Of a DNA stretch of 64,000 nt, positions 8,941 through 59,704 are shown piece after piece. The DNA is taken from assembly GCF_025146565.1 (NCBI RefSeq), contig NZ_CP102258.1:2946001-3010000 (forward strand), written 5' to 3'. This stretch comes from Bacteroides eggerthii (GTDB taxonomy: Bacteria; Bacteroidota; Bacteroidia; Bacteroidales; Bacteroidaceae). Every line of letters begins with the position of its first letter. Position 1 is the first letter of the stretch. A program made the translations under genes and the position numbers. A model generated the notes under the pieces. The model searched no databases. It was not told the DNA's origin and was given only the letters and a program-made list of their open reading frames with translations.

Positions 8941-9038
8941 TCATTAATAAATTCCGGTGGAATTTTACTAAAATTCTTCCGGAGTTTTAGTAAATCGTCA
9001 GTCGAATTTTAGTAAAACGGAACCAAGTTTTATTAATG
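8941..9038. repeat. 22-bp-phased palindrome array A (5 units)
   Basis: Five copies of an AT-rich palindromic core related to ttttaNtaaaa are centred at 8947, 8968, 8990, 9012 and 9033 (steps 21, 22, 22, 21). The first and last units are inverted versions of each other (tcattaataaa and tttattaatga). The 10-12 nt between cores are GC-richer (ttccggtgg, cgtcagtcg, cggaacc). The array lies 3' of the uvrD-type gene and 5' of nspC, both leftward. Confidence 0.85.
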
Positions 9039-9081
9039 AGCTATTTTATGTAAGCAAATATTGAAATTTATATCAAGAGTA

Positions 9082-9114
9082 TCTGCCATTCTTCGCTACG
9101 CTCCTAATGGCAGA
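9082..9114 (-). terminator. Possible terminator after the uvrD-type gene
   Basis: A 9-bp perfect inverted repeat (tctgccatt with aatggcaga) around a 15-nt loop, 9 nt past the stop codon. There is no clear T-run in the leftward direction, so termination is only possible. Confidence 0.35.
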
Positions 9115-9122
9115 CAGTTCTT

Positions 9123-11405
9123 TCACCCTATCACTTTAAAACGTGCGAAACGCAAAAGAAGTTGCTTGTCTCCCGCATTTTTGAAACGGATGGTGGCTTT
9201 TGCATTATCGCCCTCGCCTTCCACCTTCATCACTTCGCCCAGACCAAAACGTTCGTGTTCTATCAGTTGCCCCTGTTGCACGATGTTGCCGACTGTGCCT
9301 GCCGGCGAAGAAGATGCCGTTCCCATGGAAGGGGTCACACGTTTTAGGTTACGGGGGACGGTCGGAGCAATGACTTCCTGCCGGGTGCGAGAACGGAAAG
9401 ATGCGGCACTCTCGTCCACCCTGCGCCCCAACCCGGCATCCTGCGGCAATTTGAGGAAACGCACATCAATATCCTTCAAAAAGCGGCTGGGACTTCCAAA
9501 TTCCATTTTGCCATAGCGGTAGCGGCTCTTGGCATAGGTAAGGAAGCAGTGGTCTTCCGCACGAGTGATGGCCACGTAGAACAAACGCCGTTCTTCTTCC
9601 AACGCCCTGGGAGAGTCGCCCACCATACCGCTGGGAAACAGGTTCTCTTCCATGCCCACCACAAAAACATTCCTGAACTCCAGTCCTTTGGCAGAATGTA
9701 CGGTCATCAGGGTTATCTTTTCATCGTCCCCGTCTTTGTCCGAATCCTGATCTGTCAGCAAAGAAACTTCCGAAAGGAAATCGCCCAGTGTGATGTTGTT
9801 GTTGCCTTCCTCCTGCCGCTGTGCGCAAAAGTCGCTCATGCCGTTTGCAAGCTCTTCGATGTTCTCCTTGCGGCTGAGGTTTTCGGGAGAGTTGTCCTGA
9901 CAGACGTCACCGATGATGCCCGACTGGCGAATGATCTCCGTACCAAGTTCATAGGCGTTTTTCTCGGAAACGCTCTCAATAAAGCCGGTCATCAGATCAC
10001 GGAAACTTTGCAGTTTGGTCACTGTCCCCTTGTTTATATTCACTCCGTAGGTCAGCGGCTCGCAAAGCACAGTCCACAGACTTACATTGTGGTCGGTAGC
10101 GGCAGCGGTGATTTTGCTTACAGTAGTGTCGCCTATTCCACGTGCGGGATAGTTGATGATACGCTTAAAGGCTTCTTCATCATTCGGATTGACAGTGAGG
10201 CGGAAATAGGCGATTGTGTCTTTTATCTCCTTACGCTGGTAGAAGGACAAACCTCCATAGATGCGGTACGGCATACTGCGTTTGCGCATGGCTTCCTCGA
10301 AAACGCGGCTCTGCGCATTCGTGCGGTATAATATGGCAAAGTCCGAATAGGCATAGTTTCCCTGCCTGCGCAATTCGGCTATCTTATTGATCACGATATC
10401 GCCTTCCTCCACATCACTGTACGCCTGATACACTCCGATAGCTTCTCCTTTTTCTTTTTCCGAAAAGACTTCCTTGCGGATTTGCCTTTGGTTCTTTTCT
10501 ATCAGACTGTTGGCTGCAGAAACGATTGTTTGGGTGGAGCGGTAGTTCTGTTCCAGTTTAAAGACCTTCGTGCCCGGATATACTTTTGTGAAATACAGTA
10601 TGTTGTCAATATCCGCTCCCCGGAAAGAATAAATGCTCTGTGCATCATCGCCCACCACACAGACGTGCCGGTGCTCCTTGGCCAGTTGGAGCACGATACT
10701 GTGCTGGGCGAAGTTCGTGTCCTGATACTCGTCTACCAGAATGTAACGGAACTGCGACTGATAACGGGCAAGCACATCCGGATGATCGCGGAAAAGCAGG
10801 AAAGTGTAAAACAGCAAATCATCGAAATCCATTGCATCCGCCTGCCGGCAACGCTCCCAGTAACGGCGGTAAATATCGCGTATGGCAGGCATCTTGGCAG
10901 CACAGTCGCCTTCGTAAGCCTCTTTATTGTTGGCATAGCCCGCAGGAGACACAAGGTGATTCTTGGCATTGGAAATGCGGGCCTGCACCGTCCCCGGTTT
11001 GTACACCTTTTCATCCAACCCCATCTCCTTGATGATAGAGCGCAACAGGCTTTTGCTGTCTGCCGTATCATAAATGGTGAATCTTGAGGTAAATCCTATC
11101 TGTGCGGCTTCCGCATGCAAAATACGTAAGAATATGGAATGGAATGTCCCCATCCAAAGGTGGCGGGCACGCTCCACACCCACCTGCCGGGCAATACGCT
11201 CCTTCATTTCACGAGCTGCCTTATTGGTAAATGTGAGTGCAAGAATGTTCCAGGGCTGGTAATCGTTTTCCAGCAGATAAGCTATTTTGTAGGTCAGCAC
11301 ACGAGTTTTTCCCGAACCCGCACCGGCTATCACCAGCGAAGGACCGTCGTTGTAGAGCACCGCAGCACGCTGTCCTTCATTCAGTTCTTGTATATAATCG
11401 GACAT
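9123..11405 (-). CDS. UvrD/PcrA-type superfamily 1 DNA helicase
   Basis: An ATP-driven 3'-5' DNA helicase for excision repair and for clearing replication or recombination blocks. The 760-residue product shows the SF1A motifs in order: Q motif LNEGQRAAV, Walker A GAGSGKT (28-34), Walker B DEYQDTN, motif III GDDAQSIYSFRGA, motif IV EQNYRST, motif V LMTVHSAKGLEF and motif VI VAITRAED. The C-terminal tail LIEHERFGLGEVMKVEG resembles the Tudor-like domain of PcrA that binds RNA polymerase. Which of the names uvrD or pcrA applies is a matter of convention. It stands as a single leftward gene, divergent from sod. Confidence 0.93.
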   Translation of the reverse strand: MSDYIQELNEGQRAAVLYNDGPSLVIAGAGSGKTRVLTYKIAYLLENDYQPWNILALTFTNKAAREMKERIARQVGVERARHLWMGTFHSIFLRILHAEAAQIGFTSRFTIYDTADSKSLLRSIIKEMGLDEKVYKPGTVQARISNAKNHLVSPAGYANNKEAYEGDCAAKMPAIRDIYRRYWERCRQADAMDFDDLLFYTFLLFRDHPDVLARYQSQFRYILVDEYQDTNFAQHSIVLQLAKEHRHVCVVGDDAQSIYSFRGADIDNILYFTKVYPGTKVFKLEQNYRSTQTIVSAANSLIEKNQRQIRKEVFSEKEKGEAIGVYQAYSDVEEGDIVINKIAELRRQGNYAYSDFAILYRTNAQSRVFEEAMRKRSMPYRIYGGLSFYQRKEIKDTIAYFRLTVNPNDEEAFKRIINYPARGIGDTTVSKITAAATDHNVSLWTVLCEPLTYGVNINKGTVTKLQSFRDLMTGFIESVSEKNAYELGTEIIRQSGIIGDVCQDNSPENLSRKENIEELANGMSDFCAQRQEEGNNNITLGDFLSEVSLLTDQDSDKDGDDEKITLMTVHSAKGLEFRNVFVVGMEENLFPSGMVGDSPRALEEERRLFYVAITRAEDHCFLTYAKSRYRYGKMEFGSPSRFLKDIDVRFLKLPQDAGLGRRVDESAASFRSRTRQEVIAPTVPRNLKRVTPSMGTASSSPAGTVGNIVQQGQLIEHERFGLGEVMKVEGEGDNAKATIRFKNAGDKQLLLRFARFKVIG

Positions 11406-11527
11406 ATTCCTAATAATCTATCGGGTAAAGTTCTGTGCAAAGATAGAAAAAGGTTCGGACACCAGCGAACAATTCCATAGGTTATCACGTTAGTATAATA
11501 AAGTTTCAAAACTAAATAATTGAACTT

Positions 11528-12148
11528 ATGAATACGTTATTAATGTCTTTAATGATAATGATTATGTCACATGAAATGCCAAAACTTCCTTACGCCAACA
11601 ACGCGCTGGAACCTGTAATCAGTCAGCAAACAATAGATTACCATTACGGTAAACATCTACAAACATACGTAAACAACCTGAACAATCTTGTTCCGGGTAC
11701 AGAGTATGAGAAAAAGGATTTAGTTACCATCGTAGCTACCGCACCCGACGGTGCCATATTTAATAATGCCGGGCAAGTGCTGAACCATACATTGTATTTC
11801 CTGCAATTCTCTCCCAAACCTTCGCAAAGCGAACCCACCGGGAAACTGGCAGAAGCCATCAAACGTGACTTCGGCAGCTTTGAGAACTTCAAGAAAGAAT
11901 TCAATGCAGCGGCAGTCGGCCTGTTCGGCTCCGGCTGGGCATGGCTGTCGGTGGATAAAAACGGAAAACTGCATATCACCAAAGAAGCGAACGGAAGCAA
12001 CCCCGTACGTTCAGGACTGACTCCGCTGCTGGGCTTCGATGTCTGGGAACATGCATACTATCTGGATTATCAGAACAAACGCGCCGACCACGTCAACGCT
12101 CTTTGGAGCATCGTAGACTGGGATGCTGTGGGCAAACGAATGAAATAA
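11528..12148 (+). CDS. sodB: Iron/manganese superoxide dismutase
   Basis: It converts superoxide to oxygen and hydrogen peroxide in the cytoplasm. The metal ligands are visible: His in YHYGKHLQTY, His in GQVLNHTLYF, and Asp/His in LGFDVWEHAYYLDY. The LFGSGWAWL block with the second-sphere residues is intact. The first ATG gives 206 residues. Family members usually begin near MSHEMPKLPY, corresponding to the ATG at 11564 (194 residues); the extra 12 hydrophobic residues lack charge and are not a good signal peptide, so the shorter start is quite possible. A strong terminator follows at 12168. Confidence 0.93.
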   Translation: MNTLLMSLMIMIMSHEMPKLPYANNALEPVISQQTIDYHYGKHLQTYVNNLNNLVPGTEYEKKDLVTIVATAPDGAIFNNAGQVLNHTLYFLQFSPKPSQSEPTGKLAEAIKRDFGSFENFKKEFNAAAVGLFGSGWAWLSVDKNGKLHITKEANGSNPVRSGLTPLLGFDVWEHAYYLDYQNKRADHVNALWSIVDWDAVGKRMK

Positions 12149-12167
12149 TCCCCTTATAAAATCCTGT

Positions 12168-12212
12168 AAAAGCGCATCTATAAGCCGTAAAAGGCAACGC
12201 AGATGCGCTTTT
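12168..12212 (+). terminator. Rho-independent terminator of sod
   Basis: A 12-bp perfect stem (aaaagcgcatct with agatgcgctttt) with a 21-nt loop, followed by T-rich sequence. The A-run on the left could also serve the convergent kinase gene. Confidence 0.8.
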
Positions 12213-12243
12213 TATATGCCTATGAAGGGACAGCAACGGCTGA

Positions 12244-13128
12244 TTAAAACTTACCGTATTCCATATACTCAAGTTTGGCGGGCAGCGTAAAATAAAACGT
12301 GGATCCTTCCCCTTTCTTAGACTCTACGCCAATGCCGCCACCGTAATGTTCTATTATAGATTTACAAATAGAAAGCCCCAAACCTGTTCCGCGAATATTA
12401 TAGTTCATCTTGACAAAACGCTCAAAGATTGCACGCCTGCTCTCCTCTTCAATGCCACACCCGGTATCGGCCACGTAGAAATAGAAGTTCTGATTGCTCA
12501 ACCTTCGGCAGCCGACCTTCACACAACCTTGCTCGGTAAACTTCAACGCATTCCGTATCAGATTACCGACTACCTGCCCGAAGCGCACCCGGTCAATCCT
12601 CAAACGGCATTGGGGAAGCTTTTCTACAAACTCCGCCTGTATGCCCGGCAGACGGGAATGAGCATTCTCGGCTATGCACGTCTCCAGAATCAATGCGTTC
12701 ACATCCACCTCACCATCGTTATACTCCATTGTGTTGGCTTCAATCTTGGAGTAGTCCAGCAAATCATTCACCAGCTGCAGCAGAACATCCTTGTTTTCAT
12801 TGATCTCTTTCAGAAATGCCACACGCTGCTCCTTGTCCAAATTATCGGTTTCGGCAAGAATCGTGGTAAATCCAACAATCACATTCAAAGGAGTACGTAT
12901 CTCATGGGTCATATTTGCAATAAAGGCATTTTGCAACTGACGGCTCTCTTCTGCAACTTCGTTCATTCGCTTCAAGGCCTGGACATGCTTTGACTTACTG
13001 ATAGAAATAAAAATCATGATAAACAACAGCAGGAGGACTATTACTGCAAGACAGATTACCAATATTTCATTTTTCTGATAGAAATCATTTACTAAATCTG
13101 CAAAAACAGCAGTATATGTCAGCTTCAT
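12244..13128 (-). CDS. Membrane-anchored histidine kinase without a periplasmic sensor
   Basis: A 294-residue sensor kinase. One membrane helix spans about residues 22-44, preceded by only about 20 residues outside. It is followed by a short linker and a HisKA domain with the phospho-acceptor His75 in NMTHEIRTPLN. The HATPase domain has the N box (GNLIRNALKFTE), G1 (DTGCGIEEES), F (FERFVKM) and G2 (GTGLGLSICKSI). No response regulator is adjacent, so it is an orphan here. Sensing through the membrane, or via a partner, is inferred from the lack of a sensory domain. The preceding ppdK gene ends in its own hairpin. Confidence 0.9.
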   Translation of the reverse strand: MKLTYTAVFADLVNDFYQKNEILVICLAVIVLLLLFIMIFISISKSKHVQALKRMNEVAEESRQLQNAFIANMTHEIRTPLNVIVGFTTILAETDNLDKEQRVAFLKEINENKDVLLQLVNDLLDYSKIEANTMEYNDGEVDVNALILETCIAENAHSRLPGIQAEFVEKLPQCRLRIDRVRFGQVVGNLIRNALKFTEQGCVKVGCRRLSNQNFYFYVADTGCGIEEESRRAIFERFVKMNYNIRGTGLGLSICKSIIEHYGGGIGVESKKGEGSTFYFTLPAKLEYMEYGKF

Positions 13129-13244
13129 AGTAATTTATTTGTTTTATGAGGAAGTGTATGTGCATGCAAAGATAGGAAAGAAAATACAAAATGCAGAAAA
13201 GAAAATACAATTATTAAAATCGGAAATTCATATTCTTACAAATA

Positions 13245-13287
13245 AATTAGGCCGCAACCTTATAAAAATAAGATTTACGGCCTAATT
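13245..13287 (-). terminator. Terminator of ppdK
   Basis: A 10-bp perfect stem (aattaggccg with cggcctaatt) around a 23-nt loop, 40 nt past the ppdK stop codon. In the leftward direction it runs into tttattt. Confidence 0.65.
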
Positions 13288-13326
13288 CACCCTATCCAGT
13301 TCGCCTTACGGCGCCCATTTCATTTC

Positions 13327-16047
13327 TTAGCCTTCAATGGCAGCCTGTGCCGCTGCGAGTCTTGCAATAGGCACGCGGAACGGAGAACAACTGACATAAT
13401 TCAAACCTACCTTATGGCAGAATTTAACCGACGAAGGTTCACCGCCATGTTCACCGCAGATGCCACACTTCAAGTCCGGACGGATAGCGCGACCTTTTTC
13501 GGTAGCCATACGCACCAATTGCCCTACTCCGTTCTGATCGAGCACTTGGAACGGGTCTACTTTCAGGATCTTCTTTTCCAGATAAATCGGCAGGAAAGAA
13601 GCGATGTCGTCGCGTGAATAACCGAAAGTCATCTGCGTCAAGTCATTCGTACCGAATGAGAAGAATTCAGCAGAAGAAGCAATACGGTCTGCCGTAAGAG
13701 CCGCACGCGGGATCTCAATCATTGTACCTACTTTGAATTCAATGCTATCGCCTACTTCAGCAAACAACTTGGCGGCTTCAGCGCGGATAACCTCTTCCTG
13801 TTGCTTGAATTCGTACAGAATACCCGTCAACGGAACCATGATTTCGGGATGTGTCTCCACACCTTCTTTCTTCAATTCCAAAGCGGCACCGAGGATGGCA
13901 CGCGTCTGCATCTGTGTGATTTCCGGATAAGTATTACCCAAACGGCAACCGCGGTGTCCCAGCATAGGATTGTGTTCGCAAAGAGCCTCTACACGTTGCT
14001 GGATATACTGCAAACTTACACCCATGGTATCTGCCATTTCCTGTTGTCCTTTCAAATCATGAGGAACAAACTCGTGCAAAGGCGGGTCAAGCAGACGAAC
14101 AGTCACCGGACAACCCTCCATAGCCTTGAAGATACCCTTGAAGTCAGCCTGCTGATATGGCAAAATCTTAGCCAATGCCTTGCGACGTCCTTCCGCATCT
14201 TCCGCCAGAATCATTTCACGCATGGCTTTGATTTTCTCACCCTCAAAGAACATGTGTTCCGTACGGCAAAGACCGATTCCTACCGCACCGAAATTACGTG
14301 CCACCTGAGCATCATGCGGAGTATCCGCATTGGTGCGTACCTGCAATCTCGTATATTTATCAGCCAACTGCATCAACTCGGCAAAATCACCGGAAAGCTC
14401 GGCTGCTTTTGTTTCCACCTTTCCTTTATAAACCTCACCGGTGCTACCGTTCAAGGAAATGAAATCTCCCTCTTTCAGCACCACACCGTCCACTTCAACC
14501 GTACGGGCTTTATAGTCGATGTTCAATGCTCCGGCACCGGACACACAACACTTACCCATGCCACGAGCCACAACAGCAGCGTGCGATGTCATGCCGCCAC
14601 GTGCGGTCAGGATACCTTCGGCAACAGCCATACCTGCCAAATCTTCCGGAGAAGTTTCTATACGCACCATCACCACGCGCTTACCGCCGGCATGCCATTC
14701 GGCAGCATCTTCGGCAAAGAACACAATCTGTCCGCAAGCTGCACCCGGAGAAGCCGGAAGGCCGCGAGTCAAAACCTTGGCCTGCTTCAAAGCCGTCTTG
14801 TCAAACACAGGGTGAAGCAATTCATCCAACTTATTGGGTTCGCAACGCAGCAAAGCCGTCTTTTCGTCAATCATACCTTGATGCAGCAAGTCGGTGGCAA
14901 TCTTCACCATAGCCGCGCCGGTACGCTTGCCGTTACGTGTCTGGAGGAACCAGAGTTTACCTTCCTGTACGGTGAACTCCATGTCCTGCATATCTCTATA
15001 ATGGTTTTCCAGCTTGGTCTGCAAAGCATCCAGTTCCTTATATATTTCGGGCATTGCCTCTTCCATAGAAGGATATTTGGCCGCACGTTCTTCTTCACTC
15101 ACACCGGCAAGTTCGGCCCAACGCTTCGAACCGATAATAGTGATCTGTTGCGGAGTACGGATACCGGCCACAACGTCTTCACCCTGCGCGTTAATCAGAT
15201 ATTCGCCGTTGAAGAGGTCTTCGCCCGTAGCAGCATCGCGGCTAAAGCAAACTCCTGTAGCGGAAGTGTCTCCCATATTGCCGAACACCATTGCCTGAAC
15301 GCTTACAGCCGTACCCCATTCATCAGGAATTCCCTCCATTTTACGATACAGGATAGCGCGTTCGTTCATCCACGAGTTGAATACGGCGCAGATAGCTCCC
15401 CACAACTGTTCGTAGGCACAGGTCGGGAAGTCTTTTCCGGTCTGTTCCTTTACGGCAGCCTTGAATCTCTTTACAAGCTCCTTGAGGTCTTCCACTTCCA
15501 GTTCATTATCCAGCTTCACGCCTTTAGCATGCTTCACATCTTCTATAATGGCTTCAAACGGATCGACATCTTCTTTGTTGACCGGCTTCATACCCAATAC
15601 TACATCGCCGTACATCTGCACGAAACGACGGTATGAATCCCATGCGAAACGGGCATTGCCGGTCTTGCGGATCAACCCTTCTACAACTTCATCGTTCAAA
15701 CCGAGGTTAAGGATTGTATCCATCATGCCGGGCATGGAAGCACGTGCACCCGAACGTACGGAAACCAACAACGGATTATCTATGTCGCCGAATTTGGAAC
15801 GCATCAGCGTTTCTACGTGTGCAATGGCATTTTCTACTTCCTGCTTCAACAAGGCAACAACCTTGTCCTGCCCCATTTCATAATATTCTGTGCAAACTTC
15901 TGTTGTAATTGTAAAGCCCGGAGGAACCGGAACTCCGATAAGGTTCATCTCTGCCAAGTTGGCCCCCTTACCTCCCAAAAGGTTTCTCATGCCGGCTTTT
16001 CCTTCTGCCTGACCGTTACCAAAGGTATAAACTCTTTTTTTGTCCAT
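13327..16047 (-). CDS. ppdK: Pyruvate, phosphate dikinase
   Basis: It interconverts pyruvate + ATP + phosphate with PEP + AMP + pyrophosphate, allowing PPi-linked glycolysis or gluconeogenesis in anaerobes. The 906-residue product has the N-terminal ATP-grasp domain (GGKGANLAEM at 25-34, VSVRSGARASMPGMMDT near 100), the swivelling phosphohistidine domain with His489 in GGMTSHAAVVARGMG, and the C-terminal TIM barrel with the catalytic cysteine in CGICGEHGGEP. The 906-residue length is normal. It is a single leftward gene with a terminator at 13245-13287; the next rightward gene diverges from it. Confidence 0.97.
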   Translation of the reverse strand: MDKKRVYTFGNGQAEGKAGMRNLLGGKGANLAEMNLIGVPVPPGFTITTEVCTEYYEMGQDKVVALLKQEVENAIAHVETLMRSKFGDIDNPLLVSVRSGARASMPGMMDTILNLGLNDEVVEGLIRKTGNARFAWDSYRRFVQMYGDVVLGMKPVNKEDVDPFEAIIEDVKHAKGVKLDNELEVEDLKELVKRFKAAVKEQTGKDFPTCAYEQLWGAICAVFNSWMNERAILYRKMEGIPDEWGTAVSVQAMVFGNMGDTSATGVCFSRDAATGEDLFNGEYLINAQGEDVVAGIRTPQQITIIGSKRWAELAGVSEEERAAKYPSMEEAMPEIYKELDALQTKLENHYRDMQDMEFTVQEGKLWFLQTRNGKRTGAAMVKIATDLLHQGMIDEKTALLRCEPNKLDELLHPVFDKTALKQAKVLTRGLPASPGAACGQIVFFAEDAAEWHAGGKRVVMVRIETSPEDLAGMAVAEGILTARGGMTSHAAVVARGMGKCCVSGAGALNIDYKARTVEVDGVVLKEGDFISLNGSTGEVYKGKVETKAAELSGDFAELMQLADKYTRLQVRTNADTPHDAQVARNFGAVGIGLCRTEHMFFEGEKIKAMREMILAEDAEGRRKALAKILPYQQADFKGIFKAMEGCPVTVRLLDPPLHEFVPHDLKGQQEMADTMGVSLQYIQQRVEALCEHNPMLGHRGCRLGNTYPEITQMQTRAILGAALELKKEGVETHPEIMVPLTGILYEFKQQEEVIRAEAAKLFAEVGDSIEFKVGTMIEIPRAALTADRIASSAEFFSFGTNDLTQMTFGYSRDDIASFLPIYLEKKILKVDPFQVLDQNGVGQLVRMATEKGRAIRPDLKCGICGEHGGEPSSVKFCHKVGLNYVSCSPFRVPIARLAAAQAAIEG

Positions 16048-16254
16048 AATATAAATTTAAAGTTTCTGATTGTGATTTTTTCCATTTTTCTGTTCGCAAA
16101 TCTAAGTATATTTCACAGACTAGAAAACTTTTTGAGAAAAAACTTTAATGCAAAATGCAATTTCGACATTGCAATATTTAATCTTTCAATTCATAGAGAG
16201 AAATCCCGAAAAAATACCTATTTTTGCCACTGAATTTATTATACTGGTGTAAAA

Positions 16255-17695: not shown

Positions 17696-17733
17696 CTAAA
17701 GTAGTACTTTAGGAAGCTGAAATAGAACTTTAG
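17696..17733. repeat. Two-unit phased palindrome repeat (E)
   Basis: A perfect odd palindrome (ctaaagta-g-tactttag, centre 17704) is followed by a 14/17 matching copy (ctgaaatagaactttag, centre 17725), 21 bp centre to centre. It looks like a short form of the five-unit arrays elsewhere in the window and, like them, lies between two genes of the same direction. Confidence 0.5.
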
Positions 17734-21702: not shown

Positions 21703-22557
21703 ATGAAAAAGTTCGTAAAAGGAGTCCGGTTTACTCCTAAAAATTATTCCGATGAAGTAGAAGCCAAAATTCAACATTATAAAAGAGAAGGTTACAAACT
21801 ACCGTCAAGACATTTATTGCGTACAGAAGAACAACTGGCAGGCATACGCGAAAGTGCAAAAATAAACACCGCATTGCTCGATTACATTTCAGAGAATATT
21901 CGCGAAGGGATGTCTACCGCAGAAATAGACCACATGGTATATTGCTTCACGACAGACCATGATGCCATTCCCGCCCCTTTCCTGTACGAGGGGTTCCCAA
22001 AAAGCGTATGCGTCAGCATCAATGACGTAGTGTGCCATGGCATCCCCAGCACCAAAGAATTTCTGCGCAGCGGAGATATTGTCAACGTAGATGTATCTAC
22101 CATATATAAAGGATATTTCTCCGACGCCTCGCGCATGTATATGATCGGAGAGGTAAGCCCGGAGATGCAACGCCTCGTACAAGTAACCAAAGAATGTCGC
22201 GACCTCGGCATACAAGCTGCCCGGCCTTGGGTACGACTGGGCGACGTCGGCGCCGCCATTCAAGAACACGCCGAGAAGAACGGTTACAGTGTAGTGCGCG
22301 ACCTCTGCGGACATGGCGTAGGCGTCAAGTTCCATGAAGAGCCGGATGTGGAACACTTCGGCAAGCGTGGTACGGGCATGCTGATAGTACCGGGAATGAC
22401 GTTCACCATCGAACCGATGATCAACATGGGCACTTACGATGTTTTCATTGACGAAGCCGACGGCTGGACAGTATGCACAGACGACGGCCTGCCTTCCGCC
22501 CAATGGGAAAGCATGATCCTTATTACCGAAGACGGAAACGAGATACTGACGCAATAA
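21703..22557 (+). CDS. map: Type I methionine aminopeptidase
   Basis: It removes the initiator methionine from new proteins. All five metal ligands of the pita-bread fold are visible: Asp130 (NVDVS), Asp141 (FSDAS), His204 (LCGHGVG), Glu237 (FTIEPM) and Glu269 (AQWES). An N-terminal extension of about 40 residues precedes the catalytic core, as in MAP type 1 forms with a ribosome-binding leader. A box TACTTTTG at 21672-21679 lies 23 nt upstream of the ATG and is the likely -7 element. A 22-bp-phased array follows in the spacer before rmuC. Confidence 0.94.
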   Translation: MKKFVKGVRFTPKNYSDEVEAKIQHYKREGYKLPSRHLLRTEEQLAGIRESAKINTALLDYISENIREGMSTAEIDHMVYCFTTDHDAIPAPFLYEGFPKSVCVSINDVVCHGIPSTKEFLRSGDIVNVDVSTIYKGYFSDASRMYMIGEVSPEMQRLVQVTKECRDLGIQAARPWVRLGDVGAAIQEHAEKNGYSVVRDLCGHGVGVKFHEEPDVEHFGKRGTGMLIVPGMTFTIEPMINMGTYDVFIDEADGWTVCTDDGLPSAQWESMILITEDGNEILTQ

Positions 22558-22603: not shown

Positions 22604-22708
22604 GTACCAACCGTTGGTATTCCTTGTACCACACTTTGGTATTCCTTGTACCAACCGTTGGTATTATCGGTACCCAACGTTGGTACAACGGATACCACCC
22701 TTTGAAAC
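22604..22708. repeat. 22-bp-phased palindrome array B (5 units)
   Basis: Five 17-bp units, best form gtaccaaccgttggtat, begin at 22604, 22626, 22648, 22670 and 22692, exactly 22 bp apart. Units 1 and 3 are identical; units 2, 4 and 5 differ by a few bases, mostly keeping the inverted symmetry (taccaa with ttggta). The 5-nt gaps are tcctt, tcctt, tatcg, aacgg. A half-unit may precede at about 22591-22598 (gcggtac). It lies between map and rmuC, both rightward. Confidence 0.92.
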
Positions 22709-22750
22709 AGAATTTTCAGTTCATTGCAACTATATTTCCCATACATCATT

Positions 22751-24193
22751 ATGAATATCGTACTATTAGTCGTTGGAATTATCGCAGGAGCCATTATCGG
22801 CTATTTGACAGCCGGCAGAAAAGCCGCTGCCCTAAAAACACAAGTAGAAGCCGCCGAAGAGCGTGAAGCCCTACTGAATCGCACCGCCGAAGAACGTATC
22901 ACCCGCGAACGTTCCATTGCGGAAGAACGCTTGCAGGAGGCTAACCGCCAAGCCTCGGAACGCCTTAGCGCACAAGAACGGCTCTTTGCCGAACGCATTT
23001 CCGAACAGGCACGCAATCTCAATGAACGCCTTGCCCAGCAGGAACGTTCTTTCTGCGAACGCCTTGCCGAGCAGCAAAAGCAATGGGAACAGCGCCTCAC
23101 CCAACAGAAGGAAGAGGCCGAAGCCCTGCACAAACGCATGAATACGGAGTTTGAGAACCTTTCAAACCGCATCTTCCAAAGCAAAACCGAAGATTTCACC
23201 AAACTAAATGCCGAACATCTGGGCAACCTGCTGCGTCCGTTGGACGAAAAGATAAAAGATTTCAAGGAAAAGGTAGAGCAAGTGTACAGCACCGAAGCCA
23301 AAGAGCGCTTCTCCTTAGGCGAGCGCATCAAGGAACTGGTGGAGCTGAACAACCGTCTCAGCGAAGACGCCAACAACCTGACACGCGCCCTGAAGGGAGA
23401 CTCCAAAATGCAAGGCAACTGGGGTGAGATGATTTTAGAGCGCCTGCTGCAAGCATCAGGCCTGATTGAAGGCGAGCACTATTTCCGTCAGGAGTTTCTG
23501 AAAGACGAACGAGGGGAAGCTATTGTCAGTGAAGAAAGCGGACAAAAGATGCAGCCGGACATCCTTATCAAATACCCAGATGAACGCGAAATGATAATAG
23601 ACTCCAAAGTGTCTCTCACTGCCTACGCAGCCTATACATCTGCCGAAGACCGGGAAGAGCAGGCACGTTGGCTCAAGGCGCATTTGCAGTCTGTCCGCAG
23701 CCACATCGATGAACTCAGCCGGAAGGATTATTCGCACTATGACATCAAATCGCCGGACTTCGTAATGATGTTCATTCCCACCGAAGGCGCTTATCTGCTT
23801 GCCATACAGAGCGATGCCAACCTTTGGGAATACGCCTACAATAAGAAAGTCGTATTGATGAGCCCCACCAACCTCATCAGCGCCCTGCGTCTCTCGCTCG
23901 ACCTGTGGAAACGGGAAAACCAAGTGAAAAACGTACAGGCTATCATCAAACGCGGTACGGCCCTGTATGAAAAGATAGTAGGCTTCACCGACACTTTCCT
24001 CACCCTCGGCGACCGCATGGCGACTTTGCAAAAAGACTATGACAAGGCGCTCAACCAATTGTCCGAAGGAAACGGAAGTGTAGTCCGCCAAGCAGAAATG
24101 CTGAAAGATATGAGCCTCACCCCCAAAAAGCGTATCTCGGCAAGACTGCTGCCTAAAGAAGAGATACAGGAAGAAACGGAAGATGAAGAATAA
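22751..24193 (+). CDS. rmuC: DNA recombination protein RmuC
   Basis: RmuC limits recombination between inverted repeats and has a restriction-nuclease-like core. The ATG at 22751 gives 480 residues; a TTG 27 bases upstream is rejected because [19 protein letters not shown] is the standard N-terminal membrane anchor. A long Glu/Arg/Gln-rich coiled coil follows (about 20-150). The RmuC core has the [13 protein letters not shown] block and the active-site-like segment with [14 protein letters not shown], both typical of the family. The C-terminus is acidic. It is convergent with nhaA, 23 bp apart. Confidence 0.93.
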
Positions 24194-31350: not shown

Positions 31351-31452
31351 CATCCCATGAGACGGATAAATTCGTCCCGTAAGACAAATTTATTCATCTC
31401 ATGGGATGAATATATTCATCTCACGAGATGATTTTTTTCACCTCGTGAGACG
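31351..31452. repeat. 22-bp-phased palindrome array C (5 units)
   Basis: Five 14-bp units begin at 31351, 31373, 31395, 31417 and 31439, exactly 22 bp apart: catcccatgagacg, cgtcccgtaagaca, catctcatgggatg, catctcacgagatg, cacctcgtgagacg. The middle ones are near-perfect palindromes. The four 8-nt gaps are nearly pure A/T (gataaatt, aatttatt, aatatatt, attttttt). It lies between the TSCPD gene end and the mntH start, both leftward. Confidence 0.92.
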
Positions 31453-54061: not shown

Positions 54062-54090
54062 GAATAAAATAGAATAAGTAAAATGGATGA

Positions 54091-54378
54091 TTAATGTTGT
54101 TTCATCATGGTAGCACGAATGGCCACTATATAAAGAGTACTTTTCGTAAAACGATATACTATACGATATTTTGGATGAAGAAGGAAGCTATAATACTTGT
54201 TTTTGATGTAGAATATTGCTCATCCAATAGTCCAATAAACGGGGAATGCGACAATGTAGAAAGACATTATAGACGTCATCAACAAAATGCTGTGTGCTGT
54301 ATTATTTACTTCACACATATACCATTCCGCCACTTTCTGAATAGTACTCAAAGCTCTTTTACGTACAACGATATTCAG
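54091..54378 (-). pseudogene. Frameshifted ParE/RelE-like toxin
   Basis: Conceptual leftward translation needs three reading frames. It opens with NIVVRKRALSTIQKVAEWY (from about 54375), then HFVDDVYN in a second frame, then TLSHSPFIGLLDEQYSTSK in a third, and closes with YYSFLLHPKYRIVYRFTKS and a tail IRATMMKQH, stop at 54091-54093. The joined product of about 95 residues has the ParE/RelE layout. No ATG is found at the start; a CTG overlaps the antitoxin stop. The indels should inactivate it. Confidence 0.75.
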
Positions 54379-54632
54379 TGTCCCCATTGTGCAAAAAAAG
54401 CATTCACTTCTGCCTTTGTAGCATTACCTCCCGATTCCGACAACCGAAGTTCTTCCGCAAACTCTTCATCAGAATAGATACCAGGCATTTCATCTGCATG
54501 CAGCAGTACCAAACATTCCTGCAACTTCCTTTCATCAGTAGTGGTATCAAGAGAAGCTATTATCCTATTCTTCAAGCTTTGGAGATAAGGAGCATTATAT
54601 GCTACTGCTGGTTCGGATACTTTCATTTTCAT
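54375..54632 (-). CDS. Antitoxin-like protein of a decayed toxin-antitoxin pair
   Basis: An 85-residue protein (MKMKVSEPAVAYNAPYLQ, then DEMPGIYSDEEFAEELRLSES and a tail TKAEVNAFFAQWGH). The acidic, helix-rich make-up, the size and its position directly before a ParE/RelE-like remnant suggest an antitoxin. No DNA-binding motif is obvious. The stop codon overlaps the presumed toxin start. It reads in the same direction as the operon but has no role in sugar synthesis; it splits rfbF from rfbG and was probably inserted later. Confidence 0.7.
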   Translation of the reverse strand: MKMKVSEPAVAYNAPYLQSLKNRIIASLDTTTDERKLQECLVLLHADEMPGIYSDEEFAEELRLSESGGNATKAEVNAFFAQWGH

Positions 54633-54717
54633 GGCAACATGCCTTTATTTATTATTAGACAAATAACGGTATTTTATCCGACACTAACAAATATTTCAAA
54701 TAGTATTGTTCAATTTG

Positions 54718-55497
54718 TCACCAGACTTTCCAAGGAGCATGATTTCTATCCCACATCTCATTCAACTCCGTATTATCACGAAGTGTATCCATAGGTTTCC
54801 AAAATCCCGTATGACGATAAGCATGCATCTTACCATCGCCGGCTATACGTTCCAAAGGAGTACGTTCAAATATAGCCGTATCGTCATTCTCTGGAATATA
54901 ATCGAACACCTCAGGCTCACAAACAAAATAACCTGCATTAATCCAATTACGGTCGCCATCAGGTTTTTCTTGAAAAGAAAGTACCTTGTCAGTACTCAGG
55001 TCTATCTGCAAAGCACCAAATTTACCTCCCGGTTTATATGCTGTCAATGAGAGAATAGCCCCCGATGTTTCATGTACGGCAATAGTATCAGTAATATTCA
55101 AATCTGCAACTCCGTCTCCATATGTCAGCAAAAAACGTTCGTTACCAATGTATTTCTGAACCCGTTTAATGCGTCCGCCAGTTTGAGTATTCAAACCTGT
55201 ATCCACCATGGTTACTTTCCAGTTCTCCGAATGGTTGTCAAGAATTGTAGTGGTATTATTAGACAAATCCACAGTCATATCACTATTATGCCGGAAATAA
55301 TTGGCAAAGTATTCTTTAATGACATACTGTTTGTACCCGCAACAGATTACAAATTCATTGATTCCATAATGACTATATGTCTTCATTATATGCCAAAGGA
55401 TAGGTTTCCCACCTATTTCAACCATAGGTTTAGGAATAAGGTTGGTGGCTTCACTCAGACGTGTACCGAGCCCACCAGCAAGTATTACTGCTTTCAT
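54718..55497 (-). CDS. rfbF: Glucose-1-phosphate cytidylyltransferase
   Basis: It makes CDP-glucose from CTP and glucose-1-phosphate, the first step to CDP-dideoxyhexoses. The 259-residue product has MKAVILAGGLGTRLSEAT (nucleotide loop), KPMVEIGGKPILWHIMKTY, FVICCGYKQYVIKEYF, LTYGDGVADLNI, and WINAGYFVCEPEVFDYI, followed by TPLERIAGDGKMHAYRH. All are typical of RfbF/DdhA, and the length is normal. It overlaps rfbH by 4 bp. Confidence 0.96.
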   Translation of the reverse strand: MKAVILAGGLGTRLSEATNLIPKPMVEIGGKPILWHIMKTYSHYGINEFVICCGYKQYVIKEYFANYFRHNSDMTVDLSNNTTTILDNHSENWKVTMVDTGLNTQTGGRIKRVQKYIGNERFLLTYGDGVADLNITDTIAVHETSGAILSLTAYKPGGKFGALQIDLSTDKVLSFQEKPDGDRNWINAGYFVCEPEVFDYIPENDDTAIFERTPLERIAGDGKMHAYRHTGFWKPMDTLRDNTELNEMWDRNHAPWKVW

Positions 55498-56828
55498 TTC
55501 ACAAACTCCTTGATAGTGGTTATCATATAATCAAGCATCTCATGAGTCATACCCGGATAGACACCTATCCAAAGTGTGTTGTTCATGATAAAGTCTGTAC
55601 CGTCCAACTTACCGACGACACGAAATCCCTCACCCGAACGACGCATCTCGTCAAAAGCCGGATGCTTCAACAAATTACCGGCAAAGAGATTGCGGGTCTG
55701 TATCTTCTTGCTTTCCAGATATTGGGAGAACTCGTTGCGAGTGAATCCCGCATCCGCTTTCACCGAAATCAGAAAGCCGAACCAGCTTGGATTTGAGTTC
55801 TTCTGCGCTTCAGGAAGTATCAAACCTTGAGTACCTTCAAGTCCTTGTTTCAAATAAGAAAAATTCTTGCGGCGTGCTTCAACAATTCCATCCAGTTTAT
55901 CCAATTGCGCACAACCGATGGCAGCCTGCATATCAGTCACTTTCAAATTATAACCGAAATGGGAATAGACATATTTATGATCGTAACCCAAAGGGAGCTC
56001 ACCGAATTGTCTGGTAAAACGACAACCGCAAGTATTGTCCACACCGCCTACACACCAACAGTCACGTCCCCAATCTCGGAATGAATTCACAATCTTATGC
56101 AATTGGGGATTGTTTGTATAAACAGCACCACCTTCTCCCATAGTCATGTGGTGGGGAGGATAAAAACTACTCGTACCTATATCTCCAATTGTACCTGTCT
56201 TCTTTTCCTCACCATTAATTATATAAGTTGAACCTAAAGCGTCACAGTTATCCTCTACCAGCCAAAGATTATACTTGTCACAAAAGGACTTTACAGCCTC
56301 CAGATTAAAAGGATTACCTAATGAATGTGCAATCATAACAGCTTTTGTCCTGGCAGAGTATGCAGCCTCCAATTGTGTCACATCAATATTATATTCAGGA
56401 ACAGTGACATCTACAAACACTGGAACAGCCCCATACTGAATACAGGGAGTTACAGTGGTAGGAAAACCGCAAGCTACTGTAATCACTTCATCACCACGCT
56501 TGACTTGGCGTTCCCCCAATAAGGGTGAAGTTAGCGCTGAAAAAGCTAACAGATTTGCTGAAGAACCGGAATTTGTCAAAGAACAATACCTTACTCCCAA
56601 CCATTCTGCAAAGCCTTTCTCAAATTTACGTGCCCATGGCCCGGCAGTTAACCAAAAATCAAGGGAAGAGTCAACCAAATTAACAAGTTCATTCTCATCA
56701 AAATAACGCCCTCCATAATTCACAAAAGTCTTACCGGGTTCAAAAGATTTTTCTTGTCCATGAACTTCTGCATAATATTCTTTGGCCAAAGCCAAGATTT
56801 GCTGTTTAAGTTCGTCTTTTCTATTCAT
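55494..56828 (-). CDS. rfbH: CDP-4-keto-6-deoxyglucose 3-dehydrase (E1)
   Basis: A PMP- and [2Fe-2S]-dependent dehydrase that removes the C3 hydroxyl, giving the 3,6-dideoxy sugar. The 444-residue product has the aminotransferase fold, but the Schiff-base lysine is replaced by histidine in FYPPHHMTMGEGG, the hallmark of E1/RfbH/DdhC. Its iron-sulfur cysteines are seen in CWCVGGVDNTCGC near 245-257. It normally needs a separate reductase (RfbI/DdhD), which I do not find in this window. Confidence 0.95.
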   Translation of the reverse strand: MNRKDELKQQILALAKEYYAEVHGQEKSFEPGKTFVNYGGRYFDENELVNLVDSSLDFWLTAGPWARKFEKGFAEWLGVRYCSLTNSGSSANLLAFSALTSPLLGERQVKRGDEVITVACGFPTTVTPCIQYGAVPVFVDVTVPEYNIDVTQLEAAYSARTKAVMIAHSLGNPFNLEAVKSFCDKYNLWLVEDNCDALGSTYIINGEEKKTGTIGDIGTSSFYPPHHMTMGEGGAVYTNNPQLHKIVNSFRDWGRDCWCVGGVDNTCGCRFTRQFGELPLGYDHKYVYSHFGYNLKVTDMQAAIGCAQLDKLDGIVEARRKNFSYLKQGLEGTQGLILPEAQKNSNPSWFGFLISVKADAGFTRNEFSQYLESKKIQTRNLFAGNLLKHPAFDEMRRSGEGFRVVGKLDGTDFIMNNTLWIGVYPGMTHEMLDYMITTIKEFVK

Positions 56829-56840
56829 AAATACAACTTT

Positions 56841-57947
56841 TTATTTCTTATCTCTCAAATAATCCCACCACAGATTCAGCCCTATCCAAATCACGATATC
56901 AGCCACCAGCAGCACCGTATTATTTACATCAGGTACTAACAGAATATTGGCCGCACTAAAAGAACAAGACATGAAAAGCAAACTCAGCATTGCCTTTCTC
57001 GGCGACAACCCTATCGCCAGTAATTTATGGTGGATATGATTCTTATCCGGTTCAAAAGGGCTATGTCCCTCACGAATACGGACCAAAACAACACGTACCA
57101 CATCGAACGCCGGAATAATCATAGTGCTGAAAGCTATGATAAAAGCTCCTTCGGTATACGGCATTATATCCGCATTGTGCTGACTGTACTTTATGGCAAG
57201 GAAGCTAAGCGTATAACCTAAAGTAAGGCTGCCCGTATCTCCCATAAAAATCTTACGGGCACGCTCCACACTGCCAAATACGTTGTAATAAAAAAACGGG
57301 ACAAGCACACCGAAAGTGCCTGCAGCGAGCATGGCATAACTCCAAAGTCCTTTCTCTATAAAAAGAAAAGTGAAAATCAATAATGCCACGCTGCTTAAAC
57401 CGGAAGCAAGACCATCAATTCCGTCTATCAGATTAATGGCGTTGGTGATGAAAACTACTGTCAGTATGGTGAAAGGTATACCTACATAGACCGAAAGTTC
57501 ATGTATACCGAATAAACCATACAAATCGTTTATCCAAAGTCCTGACAAAGGAAAAAGGCAGGCACAGAAGATTTGAATAACGAACTTCTGACGATAACGG
57601 ACGCCAACAAGATCATCAGCAATACCTGTCAGATAAAGTAAAGTCATACCGCAGGCAAATAACAATAACTCCGGTAACAGATAGCTTGCATAAAGTGTTG
57701 AAACACTGTCACCTCCTAACAAACGGAAAGTATAAACAAGACAGAAAGCAAATAAGGTGGTGGGGAAAAAAGACACGCCACCTAAACGCGGAATAGCTCT
57801 CTTATGTACCTTGCGATCATCCGGAATGTCAAAAAGTTTCTTGCGCAGGGATATCAATAAAATACGCGGTATCAGGATACGGGCGATAACTGCCGATATC
57901 AGAAATATCAGAATTATAAAAATGAAGTTCACTACAATAAATGTCAA
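56841..57947 (-). CDS. WecA/TagO-type undecaprenyl-phosphate sugar-1-phosphate transferase
   Basis: The polyprenyl-phosphate transferase that starts repeat-unit synthesis in the inner membrane. The 368-residue product has about 11 helices, with YLTGIADDLVGVRYRQK (DD motif), NAINLIDGIDGLASGLS (the third aspartate motif) and KIFMGDTGSLTLGY, and near the C-terminus DKNHIHHKLLAIGLS with the HIHH carbohydrate-recognition motif. The start appears to be TTG at 57947, with GTG five codons later as an alternative. It is the first enzyme gene after upxZ; in many Bacteroides loci the initiating enzyme is last. Confidence 0.92.
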   Translation of the reverse strand: MTFIVVNFIFIILIFLISAVIARILIPRILLISLRKKLFDIPDDRKVHKRAIPRLGGVSFFPTTLFAFCLVYTFRLLGGDSVSTLYASYLLPELLLFACGMTLLYLTGIADDLVGVRYRQKFVIQIFCACLFPLSGLWINDLYGLFGIHELSVYVGIPFTILTVVFITNAINLIDGIDGLASGLSSVALLIFTFLFIEKGLWSYAMLAAGTFGVLVPFFYYNVFGSVERARKIFMGDTGSLTLGYTLSFLAIKYSQHNADIMPYTEGAFIIAFSTMIIPAFDVVRVVLVRIREGHSPFEPDKNHIHHKLLAIGLSPRKAMLSLLFMSCSFSAANILLVPDVNNTVLLVADIVIWIGLNLWWDYLRDKK

Positions 57948-57953
57948 ACAGAA

Positions 57954-58430
57954 TTAATCTATAACCTCAAAAGGATATTGATTCTCTTCTAAATTTCTTA
58001 ACTCACCGATTATTTCAGTTTGTTCGGAAGTCAATGAAGATATATCCCAAGTATCAATAATGGAATGAGCTTCTTTGGCTAATTCTTCCTCATAAACCTC
58101 ACCATAGCAGCAGGTAAGCAGGCGAACTTTCAGAAGCGAAACAGGAAGTCTATCAAGAACATTCCAACAACGGTCGAGAAGATGCTGGATATATTGTTGT
58201 TTGCGGCCATTATCATAAAAAGTAGCATTTAGGGCTACTAAAATAGAAAGGCAAAGCCTGGCTTCTTCTTCCGGAGTGTCACCTTCCGGAGCGCTATACA
58301 GTCTAAGAGCTTGTTCATAAACTTCGCGATTCAAACGGGCGAAGTGGCCGCTGTAAATGGGACTATCGTCCATGCCCAAGTTCAGAAGTTCATGGGCAAG
58401 AGTGTACAAAGATGAAACGTGATCGTTCAT
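57954..58430 (-). CDS. upxZ: UpxZ family inhibitor of non-cognate antitermination
   Basis: In B. fragilis UpxZ proteins block the UpxY of other capsule loci, so that one locus dominates. This 158-residue, mostly helical acidic protein reads LYTLAHELLNLGMDDSPIYSGHFARLNREVY, split by low-conservation parts, followed by EEEARLCLSILVALNATFY and LLDRCWNVLDRLPVSLLKVRLL. These segments, size and position 36 bp after upxY match the family. It lies 6 bp before the transferase gene. Confidence 0.9.
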   Translation of the reverse strand: MNDHVSSLYTLAHELLNLGMDDSPIYSGHFARLNREVYEQALRLYSAPEGDTPEEEARLCLSILVALNATFYDNGRKQQYIQHLLDRCWNVLDRLPVSLLKVRLLTCCYGEVYEEELAKEAHSIIDTWDISSLTSEQTEIIGELRNLEENQYPFEVID

Positions 58431-58466
58431 TTTTCTAAGATATAGAAGTTATTGATTTACAAATAT

Positions 58467-59066
58467 TCAGATATTTTCTATCGGTTCTATCAGTGAGGAA
58501 TGGATGAATGTAGTAGCAACTGCCATAACACCTTCTATATTCACCACTACACGACGGTCGTGACGGAGACGCACAAACTCGCCAACAGCTCCTTCAAAAA
58601 CTCCGCCTGTGATGCGTACTTTAGTACCTTTCACTAACTTCAGTTCTTCCGGTTCCACATAAATAACAGCCTCATCGTACGTGCCCGCAACTAATATGAA
58701 ACTGCGCATCTGTGCATCCGGAATAATGACAGGCTGACGAGTTTCCCGATTCATAATATAACGGACAGGAATATTCAGAGCATAATTATTTTTAATTTCG
58801 TCAATACATGCACGCGTGGAACGGATAAAGACTAAATTGTGTATGGCAGGGACAAGCTTGCGAACACGACGTTCGTTTCTCATGATATATTCATAATGCA
58901 TGGGAATGAAATTCTCTATATCCGCCTTATCCAAATAGTCTTTGAGAGACAATTCACGACTGTAAGTTACGCGGACAACATACCAATGTAATTGGCAATC
59001 TCTCTTTAATTGACAATTAGAAATATACTGCGATTCAGATTGAATATTTTCTGATGAACGTGGCAT
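58467..59066 (-). CDS. upxY: UpxY-type transcription antiterminator (NusG paralogue)
   Basis: UpxY lets RNA polymerase read through the long leader of its own capsule operon. The 199-residue product (from the ATG at 59066; a TTG two codons upstream is possible) has an NGN domain (HWYVVRVTYSRELSLKDYL to about 130) and a C-terminal KOW domain (LVKGTKVRITGGVFEGAVGEF near 145-165). It is the first gene of the operon, 260 nt from the predicted start of transcription, which fits an antitermination leader. Confidence 0.93.
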   Translation of the reverse strand: MPRSSENIQSESQYISNCQLKRDCQLHWYVVRVTYSRELSLKDYLDKADIENFIPMHYEYIMRNERRVRKLVPAIHNLVFIRSTRACIDEIKNNYALNIPVRYIMNRETRQPVIIPDAQMRSFILVAGTYDEAVIYVEPEELKLVKGTKVRITGGVFEGAVGEFVRLRHDRRVVVNIEGVMAVATTFIHSSLIEPIENI

Positions 59067-59309
59067 TACCAAGTAATAATCGTAAGGTTTCGGATAAAAT
59101 AAAGTCGTGTGAAAAGGATATTCTTTGGGGACACCGGAGTAACAAAGTACCTTCCGATCAATTCATGTAATGCAATTATTTCCAATAGTTTAGTCTGCAT
59201 CCATATTATCCCAAAATTCCCCACTATCACAGAAAGAGAATGTTGAAACAGTTATGTGATCAATAAGCTCTTTTAAGGAGCTGAAAACTAATAATTTAAA
59301 AACAAATAT
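59067..59309 (-). promoter_or_regulatory. Leader region of the polysaccharide operon
   Basis: About 240 transcribed, untranslated bases precede upxY. One compact hairpin is visible, agctc with gagct around a 7-nt loop (59266-59282). UpxY-type factors act on such leaders; which element is recognised cannot be seen here. Confidence 0.55.
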
Positions 59310-59540
59310 GTGTTTTTAGACGTTCGTTTAATAAACGCAAAGATATGGTAGTTTTTTGTATTGGCAAAATGTTTGATAGGAAATCTTTGGATTTTATAGC
59401 TAGCATATAAGTTAAATGCCTGTTTATTAGATAATAATCATTTGTAATTATATCAGTCAACTTTTGCGTTTTTTCATATATTTCCACTTTATATCGTTTG
59501 CTTCTGAAAGGTGTTTATTAAACGAACGTTTAAAAAACAC
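59310..59540. other. Invertible promoter segment flanked by inverted repeats
   Basis: Inverted repeats of about 29-30 bp lie at 59310-59338 and 59511-59540. They share a perfect 17-bp core acgttcgtttaataaac (59320-59336) and its complement (59513-59529), with near matches on both sides. The core contains AGACGTTCGT on the left and AAACGTTCGT on the right, agreeing with the ARACGTWCGT consensus I recall for Mpi-inverted capsule promoters of B. fragilis. The segment between (about 172 bp) carries a promoter at its upxY end. No invertase gene is in this window. Confidence 0.88.
59338..59367 (-). promoter_or_regulatory. Capsule promoter, currently in the ON orientation
   Basis: On the leftward strand, TTG (59365-59367) and TATCTTTG (59338-59345) are 19 nt apart, a full Bacteroides promoter. 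It lies just inside the left repeat and points toward upxY. Inversion of the segment would turn it toward lipB and silence the operon. Confidence 0.87.
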
Positions 59541-59607
59541 TTCTCAAGCCTATCTTCCCCCTATTTTTCAATATTAGCAAAGTAGAATCAAAAAAGCCCG
59601 CAATGAA

Positions 59608-59704
59608 GTTAACATCATTGACTATAATAAGTTAACATCATGCAAACAGCAAGTTAACTTATTACAATACAAGAAGTTAACATCATTACAAAGAAGATGT
59701 TAAC
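59608..59704. repeat. 22/23-bp-phased palindrome array D (5 units)
   Basis: Five units with core gttaac start at 59608, 59631, 59653, 59676 and 59699 (steps 23, 22, 23, 23). The fuller unit is aagttaacatcatt; unit 3 continues into cttatt and unit 5 begins gatgttaac, which keeps inverted symmetry. It lies 3' of lipB and outside the invertible segment, upstream of the polysaccharide promoter. Confidence 0.88.

Follow-up and report, generated by a model that had tools for sequence, protein, structure and literature searches.

Intergenic regions of Bacteroides contain short arrays of units that repeat every 22 bp, and many different unit sequences have this step in common. The arrays were noticed in a stretch of 64,000 nucleotides from Bacteroides eggerthii (RefSeq assembly GCF_025146565.1, contig NZ_CP102258.1, positions 2,946,001 to 3,010,000), which we call the window. 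We found that such arrays are real and general in the genus, and we lean towards reading them as sites for a DNA-binding protein. The genome that holds the window (G000) is 4.2 Mb in one contig and 99% complete. Its nearest named relatives, judged by an RmuC-like protein encoded in the window, are B. propionicigenes, B. gallinarum and B. clarus.

Arrays with a 22-bp step in Bacteroides

An initial annotation, made from the letters alone, had described four spacers in the window with five palindromic units each, at steps of 21 to 23 bp that are exactly 22 in two of the arrays. The mapped unit positions of A1 to A4 agree with this description:

A1, 8941..9038: family F1 (core TTTASTAAA); cores at 8943, 8964, 8986, 9008 and 9029; steps 21, 22, 22 and 21
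A2, 22604..22708: family F2 (TACCA-N5-TGGTA); TACC at 22605, 22627, 22649, 22671 and 22693; every step 22
A3, 31351..31452: family F3 (about CATCTCATGAGATG); units at 31351, 31373, 31395, 31417 and 31439; every step 22
A4, 59608..59704: family F4 (AAGTTAACATCA, asymmetric); GTTAAC at 59608, 59631, 59653, 59676 and 59699; steps 23, 22, 23 and 23
A5, 17696..17733: weak two-unit element, CTAAAGTAGTACTTTAG / CTGAAATAGAACTTTAG, imperfect; period 21 according to Tandem Repeats Finder

A5 is far weaker than the other four, and in A1 the two outermost of the five cores are degenerate. The palindromic character that had been ascribed to the units is common but not universal, because some families are asymmetric.

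The annotation had named a lack of lag-22 excess over shuffled intergenic sequence as the result that would speak against the arrays. We looked for this excess in samples rather than whole genomes, using a local lag statistic (at least 27 of 44 matches) on intergenic intervals and on their dinucleotide shuffles. An unbiased set was made up of 565 intergenic intervals of at least 70 bp, from 70 stretches (1.4 Mb, window excluded) that had not been picked for arrays: 40 evenly spaced stretches of the same genome, 10 from G021 and 20 from eight other Bacteroides. The excess is large. Lag 22 passes in 27 of the 565 intervals, compared with a mean of 0.3 and a maximum of 3 in 20 shuffles. Among other lags, 44 passes in 16 intervals and 14 in 9, and the rest in at most 5. 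A larger set, of 743 intervals, includes the window and stretches selected in part around known arrays. Lag 22 passes in 42 of its intervals versus 0.4 in shuffles; a few of the 42 look by eye like simple-sequence false positives. Plain aggregate autocorrelation is much weaker (z of 4.7 at lag 22, 4.5 at lag 21 and 6.5 at lag 8) because the arrays occupy only a small share of the spacers, and a local statistic is therefore needed. The density of strong arrays is about 15 per Mb in this genome and 20 to 35 per Mb in samples of other Bacteroides, the highest figure coming from a sample partly selected around known arrays.

Three-unit chains of 11-mers show the same preference. In the genome of the window, with the window included, 11 such chains have a lag of 22 and no other lag has more than 2. 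There are 6 at lag 22 in 400 kb from eight other Bacteroides genomes, followed by 3 at lag 21, and in 200 kb of G021 there are 3 at 22 and 2 at 23. Other families of Bacteroidales (347 kb) have 1 at 22 and 2 at 23, which is not above other lags there. No chain at 22 occurs in 143 kb of RmuC loci outside Bacteroidaceae, and a scan of 200 kb of E. coli K-12 found no lag-22 array.

Spacing and array size

When distances of 14 to 44 bp are allowed, 16 of the 18 F1 core pairs in G000 are 22 bp apart, one is at 36 and one at 44; the reversed F1 pattern, used as a control, has no match in this genome. At the F1 loci that we fetched, an exact core is followed 10 to 35 bp on by a core with at most one mismatch in 81 pairs, 79 of which are at 22. 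The F12 family (GAAACTNTAGTTTC) is similarly strict. Across 157 Bacteroides genomes, 83 of its 118 pairs are at 22, with 1 at 23, 3 at 24, 25 at 44 and 6 at 45. The rest of the range from 16 to 46 is empty, and the reversed control has no match in any of the 157.

The size of the arrays is also narrow. Among 35 F1 arrays from five genomes, whose units were extended with at most two mismatches, 24 have four units, nine have three and two have five; this collection consists of the G000 loci and part of those in G018, G094, G095 and G109, with two-unit arrays left out. Their polarity is uneven: the first core has C and the last has G in 21 arrays, the reverse applies in 5 and neither in 9, the orthologues among these 35 not being independent. 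We also counted 60 arrays of all families, requiring at least three units and allowing steps of 20 to 24, so that a few entries may be false. There are 27 arrays with four units, 16 with five, 9 with three, 6 with six, 1 with seven and 1 with eight, and the step is 22 in 153 and 23 in 31 of 206 cases.

Unit families and their dispersal

Beyond F1 to F4 and F12, we found units of GTGCCA-N6-TGGCAC, TCACCTTATAAGGTGA, TACACCCGGGTGTA (23 bp) and others. In another family of Bacteroidales, a 23-bp unit, CTCACAAGTTTGTCAGTTTTTAC, forms two arrays that lie at most 1.5 kb apart (L243, 8239 and 9655). Intergenic tandem repeats with a period of 7 bp occur as well, at L010 18529-18650 (TAATCACTAATTA...).

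Several families are dispersed within genomes. In G000 the strict F1 pattern gives 18 core pairs at 8 distinct loci, to which BLAST adds 3 degenerate loci. A triple F2 pattern has 15 matches there, and the 12 that are listed lie at 8 loci (at least 8 in all), every one at 22; this pattern admits periods of 20 to 22 only, and thus tests dispersal and not spacing. It follows that the claims of a different sequence at each locus and of no match between arrays were overstated, given eight F1 arrays genome-wide and at least eight for F2.

The families differ between species. F1 pairs occur in 27 of 158 Bacteroides genomes and are abundant (11 to 43 pairs) in only nine: G000, G018, G064, G094, G095, G109, G112, G157 and G179. 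Elsewhere there are 1 to 3 pairs, the level of the reversed control, which outside G000 gives 1 or 2 in some thirty genomes and 9 in G073; such counts therefore mean nothing. F12 occurs in 18 of 157 genomes. The nine F1-rich genomes have no F12 pairs, and the 18 genomes with F12 have at most two F1 pairs each where both were counted. This exclusion would be expected if a trans-acting factor set the dialect of a genome, but shared ancestry alone could give the same result. Among 296 genomes from across the phylum, the F2 pattern matches only in G000 and the distant G462; F2-like arrays in G031 and G109, neither of which belongs to that set, were found by BLAST. The strict F4 pattern has five matches in three of 157 genomes, four at 23 and one at 22.

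Two arrays consist of near-copies. An array in G085 has six units with identical spacers, and in G462 (L372, about 1500-1610) five near-identical 22-bp units, ACCACAAAGTGGTTGCAATTTG, lie just upstream of a gene that we named by eye as encoding an AAA-type ATPase. The G462 array lies outside Bacteroidales and looks young. The ATPase was considered as a partner of the arrays and rejected, since it has no relatives among the 1547 predicted proteins of the stretches.

Orthologous loci

At six orthologous F1 loci, in 13 pairwise comparisons that are not independent, identity is 93% in the cores (412 of 441 positions) and 54% in 11 of the 13 positions between them (289 of 539). At the A1 locus, whose orthologues are F1 arrays in G018, G109 and G094, the between-core identity is 27 to 42%, which is near chance. 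Several F1 loci are common to different species, and the dispersed F1 loci likewise have the same cores and different spacers. The best conserved of the six loci is an F1 array between convergent genes in three species (L293, L303 and L218). Its spacer identity is 77 to 82%, and units one to three make up a perfect inverted repeat.

The arrays turn over among relatives. A1 is absent from G031, A2 from G109, and A3 and A5 from both, and A4 is present in both, with five direct units in G031. The initial annotation had regarded absence or loss of phase in close relatives as evidence against the arrays; absence does occur at some of the loci compared, but the step is kept wherever an array is present. 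The spacers orthologous to that of A3 (L204 16570-16790 in G031 and L210 2055-2280 in G109) have an unrelated, MITE-like inverted repeat in place of the array.

One orthologous spacer changed its sequence and kept its register. A2 lies between two genes of the window:

21703..22557, plus strand: gene upstream of A2 (open reading frame and gene call), whose product we take to be methionine aminopeptidase (map)
22751..24193, plus strand: gene downstream of A2 (gene call), presumably RmuC-like; orthologous spacers were located with its protein as the query

We examined 41 RmuC loci, and this spacer holds a lag-22 array in two of them, those of B. gallinarum and B. clarus. The array of B. clarus, like A2, has TACC every 22 bp with GGTA between, on an 11-bp grid. 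That of B. gallinarum has GAAAC every 22 bp, with GTTT near alternate positions. In an alignment, three of the five GAAAC sites fall where both B. clarus and the window have GGTA, and the remaining two, at the right edge, fall on GATAC and GAAAC in B. clarus or on GAAAC and GCAAC in the window. The right edge of A2 has GAAAC-type half-sites on the same grid (GAAAC at 22704, GCAAC at 22726). In B. clarus the array is longer by 44 bp (two units) than in B. gallinarum, though the placement of gaps in such repeats is uncertain. Judging from the alignment, the grid has outlived the sequence at this locus. In the three species compared, the switch would reflect either a change of reader or concerted copying within the array. 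In L032, the same spacer has intergenic 7-bp tandem repeats (TAGGTATTAGG...) as an inverted pair upstream of rmuC.

The proposal that layout rather than sequence is conserved is upheld by the dominance of the 22-bp lag among intergenic repeats, the many unit sequences and this in-register half-site change at an orthologous locus.

Arrays as putative sites of a phased protein complex

Our preferred interpretation, which we hold with some reserve, is that the arrays are probably selected, double-stranded binding sites of a protein complex that is helically phased and can change its specificity. One half-site would occupy each helical turn, giving an 11-bp grid of alternating orientation that is clearest in F2. 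Each 22 bp would then hold a single site, symmetric or nearly so, and a complex would usually cover four to five of these (about 88-110 bp). A protein would read these sites, and related proteins, or one with shifting specificity, would recognize the various families through a shared architecture. Tandem duplication of 22 bp would give rise to an array, which selection acting on its core and phase would then maintain. Because the adjacent genes appear to be a mixture of housekeeping genes, whatever their orientation, our guess is that the output might be a local role in chromosome structure or insulation between transcription units, and not the control of particular genes.

Sequence comparison bears out the parts on which this interpretation stands, namely the 22-bp step, the narrow size and the conserved F1 cores with drifting spacers, as well as dispersed families, families that differ between species and one half-site change in register. 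A conserved core, a free spacer and helical phase, as in a multi-site operator, occur together in F1; the phase occurs in F12 also. Of the two explanations originally suggested for the arrays, cooperative binding by proteins fits best, in view of the F1 cores and spacers, the narrow size and an array with little folding (below), and a process that copies 22-bp units also operates, as in G085 and G462. The two ideas may be combined, with duplication as the birth of an array and binding as its maintenance. More tentatively still, the arrays could be a lattice of fixed size, with four to five sites on an 11-bp half-site grid. Its reader family, or a scaffold with a changeable head, would switch specificity by lineage and drag the arrays and dispersed families along, such that the architecture is inherited and the sequence is rewritten.

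Several points weigh against binding by a phased complex. Our search for a putative binding protein found none. Symmetry varies among the families, which include compact palindromes, gapped palindromes and asymmetric units, and one architecture must fit all of them. Copying is sufficient by itself to produce the layout, as is seen from arrays with identical spacers. B. gallinarum (G018) is rich in F1 and yet has the GAAAC-type array between map and rmuC, and a species is therefore not limited to one dialect. The F1 conservation was measured on chains that start at an exact core, step exactly 22 bp and have at most three mismatches, so that some core identity is built in; these chains would also miss units off the 22-bp step, and it is the open count (79 of 81) that bears on the step. 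Finally, HU-HIG was considered as a candidate reader and is not supported. In G000 this model matches 22 times, with two of the matches below the cut-off. It has matches in 60 of 60 Bacteroides genomes, and it also picks up HU of the ordinary kind in E. coli and elsewhere. HU-HIG genes lie next to two F1 arrays. In the stretches examined, three of ten HU-like genes flank an array (one of the three arrays is doubtful), where 0.54 are expected by gene count and 1.43 given spacer length; by the latter measure the adjacency is not clearly in excess.

Alternative explanations

The alternative that survives best, and which we consider unlikely, is that the arrays are minisatellites. Slippage would make and homogenize 22-bp tandem copies without any bound protein, and the layout would be the by-product of a 22-bp copying ruler. 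The identical spacers of the six units in G085 and the nearly identical ones of the five units in G462 favor this, and so do the spacer TTCCTT that recurs between units of A2 and the two-unit difference in length between B. gallinarum and B. clarus. However, F1 spacers differ while cores persist, at orthologous and dispersed loci alike. The length of the arrays is narrow, and slippage offers no reason for one period across different sequences.

We find it harder to believe that the arrays act in transcripts, as rows of small RNA hairpins for termination, protection of 3' ends or RNA-protein binding. On both strands, each of the five arrays in the window has a better fold than its shuffles (z of -3.0 to -13.4). 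The same is true of orthologues in G018 and G109 (z of -2.2 to -5.9). In L082 and L084, the outer arms of the arrays that follow rmuC, TTTTTTGGTGC / GCACCAAAAAA, resemble a bidirectional terminator. Rows of palindromes would fold anyway, so the scores in the window are expected. By contrast, the A4 orthologue in G031 keeps five phased AAGTTAACATCA-type units in one direction with z of 0.0 on one strand and -1.7 on the other; phase is therefore the constant feature and folding is not. Several families have direct asymmetric units, and 6 of the 27 unbiased arrays lie between divergent genes. Intrinsic terminators have a G+C-rich stem and then a run of U where transcripts end; the window arrays do fold, but the position of arrays is not specific to 3' ends. 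No Rfam family reaches its gathering score over the window arrays, tRNAs being the only matches in the window. Hairpins should be indifferent to spacing at 1-bp precision, and exact spacing would be natural for double-stranded DNA that is read from one side.

There is a slim chance that several unrelated transcription factors have the arrays as their ordinary operators and share two-turn spacing by coincidence. The units of each family resemble the site of a dimer, and dimers are commonly brought into contact by a spacing of two turns. Against this, the neighbours appear by eye to be assorted housekeeping genes, the flanking proteins recur little, the orientation of genes is indifferent, and many families have one period and size.

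Least probable in our view are mobile palindromes of the REP/BIME (repetitive extragenic palindrome/bacterial interspersed mosaic element) type, mobilized by a transposase of the Y1 (RAYT) or another type: the dispersed, species-specific intergenic families, their presence or absence at orthologous spacers and one match to the Y1_Tnp family in each of the array-bearing G018 and G031 are in keeping with them, but Y1_Tnp (PF01797), the transposase family searched, has no match in G000 or the array-bearing G021, only 8 of 37 Bacteroides examined have one (one of these below the family cut-off), and the 18 flanks of nine F1 arrays in G000 (118 bp each, from 12 bp off the outer cores) share a single 13-bp match only. 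We also rejected an origin in phages. An F1 pair occurs in 57 viral stretches, with two units in 56 of them and three in the other, which we informally put down to chance. The F2 pattern occurs in two, with three units each, possibly in coding DNA.

Genomic setting

A1 to A5 all lie between genes of the same direction, according to gene calls. The generalization that arrays occur only in this setting fails in the unbiased set: 15 of the 27 lag-22 intervals are between same-direction genes, 6 between convergent and 6 between divergent genes, compared with 358, 84 and 123 of all 565 intervals, so that the arrays resemble intergenic DNA at large in this respect. A rule that arrays are near 3' ends looked convincing in 25 chosen arrays with a crude gene caller and was not upheld with better gene calls. 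In the larger set, same-direction arrays are nearer to the upstream stop codon in 14 of 23 cases, which is no clear bias.

The genes next to F1 and F2 arrays, judged by first residues and named by eye, look like assorted housekeeping genes. A mutual comparison of 96 flanking proteins gave orthologues from the same locus and about ten pairs of remoter relatives, two HU-like proteins among them. The neighbours of the arrays thus recur little.

Apart from the arrays, the window has six consecutive tRNA genes on the minus strand (7019-7612), with Rfam scores of 70.7, 47.7, 70.7, 42.7, 47.7 and 70.7. The repeating scores suggest tandem duplication of tRNA genes.

Comparison with known systems

We found no published description of this class of arrays in the literature searched, which did not cover subscription papers and preprints, and the class appears to be undescribed in a dominant genus of the human gut. 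If the arrays are read by a protein, they would be the sites of a putative lineage-variable DNA-binding system. They would also offer a natural experiment in the co-evolution of sites and readers, with the same position and helical register and a different sequence.

The closest system in print is BrickBuilt in Porphyromonas gingivalis, a 23-nt minisatellite inside an IS5-related MITE (miniature inverted-repeat transposable element) at 19 loci (PMC4596501). It consists of one sequence family with 1 to 22.8 copies, and has leader and tail segments with terminal inverted repeats like those of IS5-family elements (PMC4596501). Both occur in the same order, are intergenic and dispersed, have a tandem unit of 23 nt versus 22-23 (steps here are mostly 22 and some are 23), and conserve one part of the unit and not another. 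The arrays differ in having many families and mostly four to five units. Leader or tail segments with shared terminal inverted repeats are not seen in the 18 F1 flanks of G000.

REP/BIME elements and REPINs with their RAYT (PMC12306157) also form species-specific palindromic intergenic families with several sites per locus. They differ in having a single-strand hairpin and a RAYT partner. A hairpin in each unit is common in the window arrays but not constant, being absent from the A4 orthologue in G031. To our knowledge, REP/BIME elements have no fixed 22-bp step. CRISPR arrays have unique spacers of about 25-40 bp; judged by spacing only, the present arrays are distinct, with a period of 22-23 and at most about 13 bases between F1 cores.

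Iteron arrays at plasmid origins are short rows of phased protein-binding sites of about 22 bp; their repeats are direct and sit at a single origin, adjacent to a Rep gene. The Bacteroides arrays, in contrast, lie at many chromosomal loci and have many sequences. None of the F1 and F2 neighbours resembles a Rep gene by its first residues, and no search was aimed at Rep genes or origins. Octamers of the Lrp/AsnC type wrap DNA, with four dimers on phased palindromic sites, and exemplify the kind of complex that needs rows of four. By architectural analogy only, a complex of this kind could read the arrays.

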